A stretch of 64,000 nt of DNA from Cytophagales bacterium (lineage in GTDB: Bacteria > Bacteroidota > Bacteroidia > Cytophagales > Microscillaceae), in NCBI GenBank assembly GCA_013298075.1, contig JAAFJG010000019.1:1-64000 (forward strand), written 5' to 3'. Position 1 is the first letter of the stretch; every line of letters begins with the position of its first letter. This document shows positions 22,849 to 25,302 of the stretch, piece after piece. A program made the translations under genes and the position numbers. Under the pieces are notes generated by a model. The model had not been told where the DNA came from and searched no databases. It was given only the letters and a program-made list of their open reading frames with translations.

Positions 22849-23607
22849 ATGCAAACATTCGAACATTTAGACCATTATACTGAAACTATCAACGGAATTT
22901 CTTTTGATATGATATTTATCGAAGGCGGAACTTTCACTTGTGGTGATGGTTCTGACGATGATAATAAGCCACAAGTTTTGACCGTGCCTGATTTTTGGAT
23001 AGGAGAAACGCAAGTAACTCAAGAACTATGGCAAGCAGTTACCAACGAAAATCCATCTTGTTTTCAATCTCTACAAAGACCTGTAGATTCTGTTTCTTGG
23101 GTACATATACACGACAAATTTTTAGGAAAACTCAATGAATTAGCCCAAAAAAATAATTCTCCTTGTTTATATACTTTGCCTTCTGAACCCTGTTGGGAAT
23201 ATGCTGCACAAGCAGGACAACATACCAAATTCTCAGGTAGTGATAACGTGCATGAGGTTGCTTGGTTTGATGAGAATAGTCATCTGTGCACCCAAGAAGT
23301 AGCCCTCAAATTGCCTAATGACTTTGGTTTGTATGATATGTCAGGCAATGTTTGGGAATGGACAAATACAATTTACGAAGAAAATAATTACGAAAATTAT
23401 TTAGATATTTCTAAAAATGATAGTATTACTATTGATAACAAAAATCGTGTCAAAAATAACGAAATTCGTATCGTCCTGCGTGGCGGTTCGTGGATCAACT
23501 ACGATGATGGGTGCGGGGTTTCGTATCATTTCTACGGCAATCCGTCCGATGACTACAATAACGTCGGTTTTCGGCTATTTTCTTTTGTGTCTGCCAAGTA
23601 TTTGTAA
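22849..23607 (+). CDS. Formylglycine-enzyme-fold protein, candidate DGR target 1
   Basis: 252 residues with the SUMF1/FGE C-type lectin fold: GGTFTCGDGSDD, WIGETQVTQELWQ, RPVDSVSW, LPSEPCWEYAAQAG, LYDMSGNVWEW and GFRLF. The catalytic Cys pair of true FGE enzymes is not present at the RGGSW region, so it is unlikely to modify sulfatases. The C-terminal block between GGSW and GFRLF is where DGR variable proteins of this fold diversify. Compared with the next gene, 23 of 30 differences in this block fall at codon positions 1 or 2. There is no signal peptide. It is tandemly duplicated with its promoter. Confidence 0.85.
   Translation: MQTFEHLDHYTETINGISFDMIFIEGGTFTCGDGSDDDNKPQVLTVPDFWIGETQVTQELWQAVTNENPSCFQSLQRPVDSVSWVHIHDKFLGKLNELAQKNNSPCLYTLPSEPCWEYAAQAGQHTKFSGSDNVHEVAWFDENSHLCTQEVALKLPNDFGLYDMSGNVWEWTNTIYEENNYENYLDISKNDSITIDNKNRVKNNEIRIVLRGGSWINYDDGCGVSYHFYGNPSDDYNNVGFRLFSFVSAKYL
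23485..23577 (+). other. Candidate DGR variable region 1
   Basis: A 93-bp block with an unusually high GC content for this genome, immediately before 46 bp that are identical in both copies (23578-23623 and 24521-24566). Aligned without gaps to 24428-24520 it shows 30 differences, 19 of them with A in one copy. Many variable codons fit mutated AAC or AAT codons, as in adenine mutagenesis of a template repeat. No template is found in the window. Confidence 0.65.
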
Positions 23608-23636
23608 CCCTTTTCTTTTTTACTTTTTCTTTCGTT

Positions 23637-23722
23637 TTTTTAGCACGCTGATAACGCGGGTTTTACGGATTAAAACGGATAATATAAACAAATCCATTTA
23701 AATCCGCGTTATCCGCGTTCTA
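23637..23722. repeat. AATCCGCGTTATCCGCG-type repeat between the FGE-fold genes
   Basis: An inverted arrangement: AGCACGCTGATAACGCGGGT and, after ACGGATTAAAACGGAT, the reverse word AAATCCGCGTTATCCGCGTT. It is related in wording to the core of repeat B, but lacks the B ends. Similar words occur at 25244-25300. It lies between the two duplicated genes and could have helped the duplication. Confidence 0.6.
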
Positions 23723-23746
23723 TTTTTCAGATAAAAAATAACAAAA

Positions 23747-23780
23747 TTTTTGTATATTTTCATTTTTTATTTTACTTTTG
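23747..23780 (+). promoter_or_regulatory. Promoter of the second FGE-fold gene
   Basis: TTTTTG (23747-23752) and TACTTTTG (23773-23780) are spaced by 20 nt. The sequence is largely the same as the promoter of the first copy, so the duplication unit includes the promoter. Confidence 0.65.
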
Positions 23781-23797
23781 CAAAAATATATAATTGT

Positions 23798-24550
23798 ATG
23801 CGAACATTCGAACATTTAGACCATTATACTGAAATTATCAACGGAATTTCTTTTGATATGATATTTATCAAAGGCGGAACTTTCACTTGTGGTGATGGTT
23901 CTGATGATGATAATAAGCCACAAGTTTTGACCGTGCCTGATTTTTGGATAGGAGAAACGCAAGTAACTCAGGAACTATGGCAGACAATTACCAACGAAAA
24001 TCCATCTTTTTTTCAATCTCCAAAAAGACCTGTAGATTCTGTTTCTTGGGTATATATACATGACAAATTTTTGGGAAAATTCAATGAATTAGCTCAAAAA
24101 AATAATTCTCCTTGTCTATATACATTACCCTCTGAATCTTGCTGGGAATATGCGGCACAAGCAGGAGAAAATACTAAATACTCGGATAGTGATAATGTGC
24201 ATGAGGTTGCTTGGTTTCGTGAGAGTAGTCGTCAATGCACACAAGAAGTAGCCTTGAAACCACCCAACGCTTTTGGTTTATACAATATGTCAGGGAATGT
24301 TCGGGAATGGACAAATACAATTTATGAAGAAAATAATTATGAAAATTATTTAGATACTTCTAAAAATGATAGCATTATTATTTATAACAAAAATTGTGCC
24401 AAAAATTCAAGTATCGTCCTGCGTGGCAGTTCGTGGTACTACGTTGATTATTGGTTCGGTGTTTCGTATCGCTACTACAGCGATCCGACCAACAAAGACT
24501 ATTTCAACGGTTTTCGTTTGTTTTCTTTTGTGTCTGCCAAGTATTTGTAA
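23798..24550 (+). CDS. Formylglycine-enzyme-fold protein, candidate DGR target 2
   Basis: 250 residues from the ATG at 23798 (MRTFEHLDH), which aligns with the start of the first copy; an upstream TTG frame crosses the promoter and is rejected. It has the same FGE-fold motifs. Two strongly conserved positions are altered: NVREW for NVWEW and RGSSW for RGGSW. The C-terminal block before GFRLF differs heavily from copy 1, while the last 10 codons and the 3' flank are identical. This mosaic of conserved frame and hypervariable C-terminus suggests diversification in ligand binding. Confidence 0.85.
   Translation: MRTFEHLDHYTEIINGISFDMIFIKGGTFTCGDGSDDDNKPQVLTVPDFWIGETQVTQELWQTITNENPSFFQSPKRPVDSVSWVYIHDKFLGKFNELAQKNNSPCLYTLPSESCWEYAAQAGENTKYSDSDNVHEVAWFRESSRQCTQEVALKPPNAFGLYNMSGNVREWTNTIYEENNYENYLDTSKNDSIIIYNKNCAKNSSIVLRGSSWYYVDYWFGVSYRYYSDPTNKDYFNGFRLFSFVSAKYL
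24428..24520 (+). other. Candidate DGR variable region 2
   Basis: The counterpart of 23485-23577, same length, no gaps. Aromatic residues are enriched (YY.DYWF, YRYY, DYF), typical of codons TAC, TTC and TAT arising from AAC/AAT in a template. The identical 46-bp downstream flank could contain the homing initiation site. Absence of a template repeat and reverse transcriptase in the window means the retroelement would act from elsewhere. Confidence 0.65.
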
Positions 24551-24598
24551 CCCTTTTCTTTTTTACACTTTTATGCTTTTTTTTTCTTTTTTTTTATC

Positions 24599-24840: not shown

Positions 24841-24896
24841 AAATGCCGTTTTTTCAGATTGTCAAGTCTTCGACATTGACAACTGAAAAAACTACT
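24841..24896 (-). repeat. Repeat G copy 2
   Basis: The reverse complement of 165-220 with one mismatch in 56 positions. It forms the same long stem. The two copies are almost 25 kb apart and have unlike neighbours. Confidence 0.75.
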
Positions 24897-25243: not shown

Positions 25244-25302
25244 GAGGATTAAAAAATCCGTTTAAATCCGCTCAATCCGAGTTATCCGCGTGCCATTTTT
25301 CT
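25244..25302. repeat. Short AATCCG-type repeat
   Basis: Contains AAATCCGCTCAATCCGAGTT followed by ATCCGCGTGCCATTTTTCT, the same wording as the core of repeat B and the repeat at 23637-23722, without terminal repeats. The sequence family is a partial relic. Confidence 0.55.

Follow-up and report, generated by a model that had tools for sequence, protein, structure and literature searches.

The window analysed here, a stretch of 64,000 nucleotides from a Cytophagales bacterium (assembly GCA_013298075.1, contig JAAFJG010000019.1), contains two tandem genes on the forward strand whose products have an FGE-sulfatase/C-type-lectin fold. Gene 1 (w1, 22849..23607) encodes a 252-aa protein that matches PF03781 in Pfam with an e-value of 9e-33, while gene 2 (w2, 23798..24550) is its tandem duplicate and encodes a 250-aa protein, the two products sharing 82% amino acid identity. 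The alignment of gene 2 starts at the ATG at 23798, and a TTG at 23750 is a possible alternative start; the duplicated unit also takes in about 70-90 bp of promoter-side DNA. Two motifs are changed in gene 2, namely GNVWEW to GNVREW and RGGSW to RGSSW. The neighbouring genes are of housekeeping type, neither protein carries a fused effector domain, and no Rfam match was found around the tandem genes. An intergenic repeat, ATCCGCGTTATCCGCGT, was observed in the window at 23645-23718 and 25275-25291, with six matches at up to three mismatches against a chance expectation of 0.03; three window copies of it surround the tandem genes.

The best solved relative of w1 is the variable protein TvpA of Treponema denticola (PDB 2y3c, e-value 6e-25). 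The C-type-lectin fold that is characteristic of targets of diversity-generating retroelements (DGRs) was thus recognised by sequence, through both PF03781 and TvpA (2y3c); an AlphaFold2 model built from a four-sequence alignment reached a pLDDT of 39 and was left unused. Outside the variable block described below, the two genes show a dS of 0.30 and a dN/dS of 0.22, indicating ordinary evolution, and this ratio together with the intact reading frames suggests that both genes have been kept.

A variable block at the 3' end of both genes

Each gene carries a 93-bp block near its 3' end, variable region 1 (VR1, 23485..23577) in gene 1 and variable region 2 (VR2, 24428..24520) in gene 2, both on the forward strand like the edges and flanks that accompany them. 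In a four-gene alignment, the conserved 5' edge TATCGTCCTGCGTGGCGGTTCGTGG (23469..23493 for VR1 and 24412..24436 for VR2) is intact in gene 1, in a third copy on contig C66 of the same genome and in a relative from the sister species G011, and carries one change in gene 2. The conserved 3' flank (23578..23623 for VR1 and 24521..24566 for VR2) spans the stop codon, reaches into the 3' UTR and is the same in both genes (46/46 bp identical). Exact occurrences of a 23-mer from this flank were found only at VR copies, three in the same genome and one in G011.

Aligned over 93 bp without gaps, VR1 and VR2 show 30 differences. Codon positions 1 and 2 account for 23 of these and position 3 for seven, and at 19 of the 30 sites one copy has an A; the initial annotation had given these counts and the identity of the 46-bp flanks, and our recount agreed to the base. 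At positions 1 and 2, the two genes differ at 22/64 sites in the block compared with 32/406 upstream (Fisher p = 9e-8); the rates at third positions are similar in the two parts (6/32 and 28/203, p = 0.43). Every upstream window of 31 codons holds at most 11 position-1/2 differences, against 22 in the block, and the block has a dN/dS of 1.19 with the same dS as outside. An even spread of differences with an excess at third positions, which the initial annotation had named as grounds for abandoning a DGR origin, is clearly not the pattern. Codons ending in C make up 37 of 75 block codons (49%) compared with 10% in the ORFs of the window, and such a high share is expected from AAC-based templates. 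As in DGR targets, a variable region of about 100 bp with conserved edges therefore lies at the 3' end of w1 and w2, and its variable sites hold AAC/AAT-type codons, ending in C and free of stops. No significant fold of the BPP-1 type (hairpin or cruciform) was found in the roughly 80 bp directly after the block; the DGR target of a same-genus genome, G012, is likewise without a significant fold directly after its VR.

In the segment from GGSW to GFR, w1 has a single Cys and w2 has no Cys. The catalytic Cys pair, judged at what we take to be the catalytic positions of the FGE fold, appears to be absent from both proteins, as had been proposed, with the correction that a single Cys, seven residues past GGSW, is retained in gene 1 and in the C66 copy.

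A long near-perfect hairpin of 45 bp (24848..24892, strandless; z -6.4) with the core TTGTCAANGTCGAAGACTTGACAA lies 337 bp downstream of VR2. Sites of this element are at 24848-24892 and 179-202 in the window and at L025:8266-8373, L005:1264, L006:1040 and 1365, and L056:1696-2055. It was found on the 3' side of six VR-like FGE genes, four in the same genome and two in G011, at distances of 65-1393 bp; control stretches totalling 400 kb held three copies, and none was found near the non-variable FGE genes that were examined. The hairpin may be an element of the REP/MITE kind, or it may belong to the target site.

The shared cassette and the templates of related DGRs

The same genome has 13 PF03781 matches. 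One of them, the C66 gene (L025:9655-11838, reverse strand), encodes a 727-aa TIR-coiled-coil-FGE protein and has the block and 3' flank in common with the window genes (82% over 173 bp); it looks like a TIR effector joined to a sensor of DGR type, with the same variable-region cassette at its FGE end. Between gene 2 and the C66 gene, 98/183 third positions differ upstream (54%) compared with 2/34 in the 102-bp region (6%, p 8e-8), and in this region 24/68 sites at positions 1 and 2 differ. The block dS is 0.05 and the dN 0.43, giving a dN/dS of about 8 from a small sample with one synonymous difference; the low dS suggests recent writing. The G011 relative, from the same genus, is a coiled-coil-FGE gene with the same 5' edge and 3' flank. 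These comparisons indicate that differently built genes carry one short 3' cassette in which synonymous sites have been homogenised and coding sites randomised.

More VR-like FGE genes were noticed in the same genome at L005 (C127), L006 (C69) and L008 (C66:141966, or C66b), belonging to two other framework families. All of these genes are rich in C-ending codons, and the differences between C69 and C66b fall at template A columns (p 4e-7). The VR families of this genome thus number three (w1/w2/C66, C127 and C69/C66b).

The columns at which a template would be expected to carry adenine were taken from the template repeats (TRs) of six DGRs of the same order, each beside a DGR reverse transcriptase (RT), the genome's own template not being among them. 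The six TRs can be aligned to the window blocks along 102 bp with no gap, and they define 28 A columns, all at codon positions 1 or 2. The results showed that gene 2 and the C66 gene differ at 20/28 A columns compared with 6/74 other columns (p 5e-10), and that 16 of 27 differences between genes 1 and 2 (p 4e-5) and 12 of 18 between gene 1 and the C66 gene (p 1e-4) fall on A columns, about half of which are still A in each block. The differences are therefore concentrated at template A as in DGR targets, by proxy with the six related templates. In nine control comparisons of the same segment among non-variable Gld-type FGE paralogues, such enrichment was absent (p 0.19-1); eight of them had a third-position excess and the ninth, between two distant families, was even. 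Ordinary substitutions were also found at columns invariant in all six templates, as G-to-A changes within CGC to CAT (gene 1) and GGT to AGT (gene 2). The enrichment at A columns, the codon-position bias and the TvpA match bear out the earlier proposal that the block is a DGR-type variable region within a C-type-lectin/FGE fold.

G012 possesses a DGR RT with its TR just downstream and a remote EAD7-FGE target on another contig, and all mismatches between target and TR (13/13) are at template A. A VR gene of G011 that resembles the G012 template has 14/18 mismatches on A. The contig carrying the G012 DGR breaks off about 160 bp from the RT start, and a duplicated palindromic repeat was observed at this end, at the start of the RT gene (L057:9318-9460); this repeat is probably a mobile-element junction or an assembly artefact that cuts the cassette. 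Four cellular DGRs from a single RT clade share a further feature: a reverse-complement match between the sequence immediately following the TR and 10-13 bp located downstream of the VR, around TTTGAGC (L057:8130-8190 on the reverse strand with L148:6670-6710; L059:3826-3840 with L059:2180-2200; L110; L115). This complementarity was not seen in 50 phage DGRs (longest match 9 bp), and it could allow the template RNA to pair with the sense strand of the target.

Search for a reverse transcriptase and template

The assembly comprises 4.7 Mb in 153 contigs and is 97.9% complete, with N-filled gaps in the C66 scaffold. Only two RVT_1 proteins were found in it, a retron-type RT (L001:928-2346), whose best PADLOC family is RT_XIII and best NCBIfam family retron St85, and a DRT2-like antiviral RT (L002:601-2436). 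No DGR-type RT was detected in this 97.9%-complete assembly with PF00078, phrog_1423 or the G012 DGR RT as query, the last giving no match above the DRT2 background (e-value 5e-4). The assembly was also searched for a template repeat with the block, an A-filled pseudo-template, the other VR families, the G012 template and the 3'-flank element including its reverse complement, and only VR copies matched; templates for the C127 and C69/C66b families were not found in it either. Template candidates on C64, C104 and C135 proved to be chance matches to a ribosomal S18-like gene and to AAC-rich or unrelated coding sequence, and the G012 template was ruled out by its framework as the source of the window blocks.

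Beyond this assembly, no match to the blocks or genes was found in plasmids or phages, nor to the block, edge or flank motifs in viral contigs (IMG/VR), in which DGRs with RTs up to 38% identical have templates unrelated to the window blocks. In the sister species G011 (91% complete), no DGR RT was found, though VR genes are present. As a complete DGR system the window thus fails, RT and TR being absent from the assembly. The initial annotation had regarded both genes as remote targets of a DGR encoded elsewhere in the genome: remote FGE targets do occur in the genus, as G012 shows, but no DGR RT or TR is present in the assembly, and the near-copy with A at the variable positions beside a DGR RT that it anticipated did not turn up, as far as a 97.9%-complete draft shows.

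Origin of the blocks and comparison with known systems

That the blocks were written by a DGR at all is very probable. For this, an adenine-rich template repeat common to the window genes and the TIR-coiled-coil-FGE gene would have been copied by error-prone reverse transcription, the errors falling at A, and the resulting cDNA would then have replaced the block between the conserved 5' edge and the conserved 3' flank by mutagenic retrohoming; a matching template repeat would take the form CGTGGCGGTTCGTGG(A-rich AAC/AAT codons)GGTTTTCGTTTG. An origin without any retroelement, by ordinary tandem duplication after which selection diversified a ligand-binding surface and gene conversion kept the edges similar, seems to us improbable. 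The block dN/dS above 1 would agree with it, and the A columns fall where the lectin fold probably exposes residues at its surface, positions on which selection could act too. However, it leaves unexplained why a window gene and a TIR gene that differ at half of their other third positions have near-identical synonymous sites in the block, it accounts neither for the sharp rise in C-ending codons nor for the fit to the A columns of other DGR templates, which is absent in control FGE pairs, and gene conversion would have copied the variable sites too. It is also hard to credit that the retron type XIII-like RT or the DRT2 of this genome rewrites the blocks in trans. In its favour, the searches recovered no other RVT_1 RT from the genome. 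Against it, the scores of both are far higher with the retron/DRT2 defence families, and a template repeat was seen neither around them in the fetched loci nor elsewhere in the assembly; RTs of these kinds have no known role in A-directed mutagenesis.

Another question is whether the machinery has been lost or has escaped assembly. In the latter case, the cell would contain a DGR of which w1 and w2 are the live remote targets, and its absence from the assembly would be due to a gap or to a plasmid or phage that was not assembled or binned. This would be in keeping with a draft of 153 contigs with N-filled gaps in the C66 scaffold, with the position of the G012 DGR, from the same genus, itself at a contig end, with the agreement of the gene 2 and C66 blocks at nearly all synonymous sites, suggesting recent writing, and with the purifying selection upstream of the block. 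Nevertheless, we consider it rather unlikely: the assembly is 97.9% complete, and it would have had to miss at least two templates, since none was found for any of the three VR families. In G011 (91% complete), too, VR genes were found and a DGR RT was not, and block, edge and flank are without a plasmid, phage or IMG/VR match. Loss is favoured by the lack of templates for several VR families at once, by the repetition of the pattern in G011, by the ordinary substitutions at template-invariant columns and by GNVREW in gene 2, while the recent look of the gene 2 and C66 blocks counts against it, fitting a live unassembled DGR as well as a lost one. On balance, loss is the likelier of the two. 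We therefore favour the reading that w1 and w2 are DGR variable proteins with a TvpA-like fold that are probably now orphan targets, the mutator having been lost after fairly recent activity and fixed variant receptors left behind.

From its fold, the block may be expected to bind ligands, and the TIR copy would signal on binding as a conflict-system sensor. We suggest tentatively that this lineage may have discarded the mutator and yet retained, by purifying selection, the receptors that the DGR wrote, the TIR-linked one among them. A transient phase of hypermutation would in that case have left an innate repertoire that is now fixed, a state that two species of the genus would share, with a DGR still present in a third. 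If the mutator is truly gone, this case shows the fate of hypermutated receptors once diversification stops, and the TIR-linked third copy ties that fate to antiviral conflict systems. DGR surveys begin from the RT, and targets that outlive it therefore escape them; a comparison of paralogues with templates from related DGRs, as made here, is enough to recognise the fingerprint when RT and template are both missing.

Treponema denticola carries a DGR cassette of its own. The GGSW...GFRL segment of its TvpA chain (2y3c) matches up with the window block in a gap-free alignment, and the window genes differ from TvpA in being short and without a fused domain. The closest comparison in the genus is G012 (MAG PH2015_04U_30_13), with RT and TR on contig C129 and the remote EAD7-FGE target on C184; fold and 102-bp register are the same, but its template framework, RGGAYFNN...CAVRNRN, contrasts with RGGSW...GVSYR in the window blocks and is not their template. 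G002, from the same family, has its cassette in one place (FGE target, HRDC gene, RT, TR and caspase gene), and the VR of its FGE target is in the same register as the window blocks, while template framework and 3' flank differ.

The known class to which w1 and w2 belong is that of the remote DGR variable proteins (PMC7517822, PMC10907252), among which they are unusual in that none of the machinery was found. Like w1 and w2, the remote DGR proteins of cyanobacteria (PMC7517822) and of Thiohalocapsa PB-PSB1 (PMC10907252) carry their variable region, about 100 bp long, in a C-terminal C-type-lectin/FGE part encoded at the gene 3' end, and those genomes, like this one, carry several paralogues, some fused to TIR or other effectors, with targets away from the RT; they hold RT and template repeat in trans, whereas the present assembly holds neither. 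In relatives, the same domain is fused to TIR, EAD7, LRR or kinase-like parts, and these fused proteins resemble the DGR-diversified conflict-system sensors of PMC10907252 and PMC7159879. In Pseudogulbenkiania, distal DGR targets lie beside a strongly mutated RT gene (PMC3521204), which resembles the present case in that targets persist with their own RT decayed and differs from it in that another RT persists in the genome.
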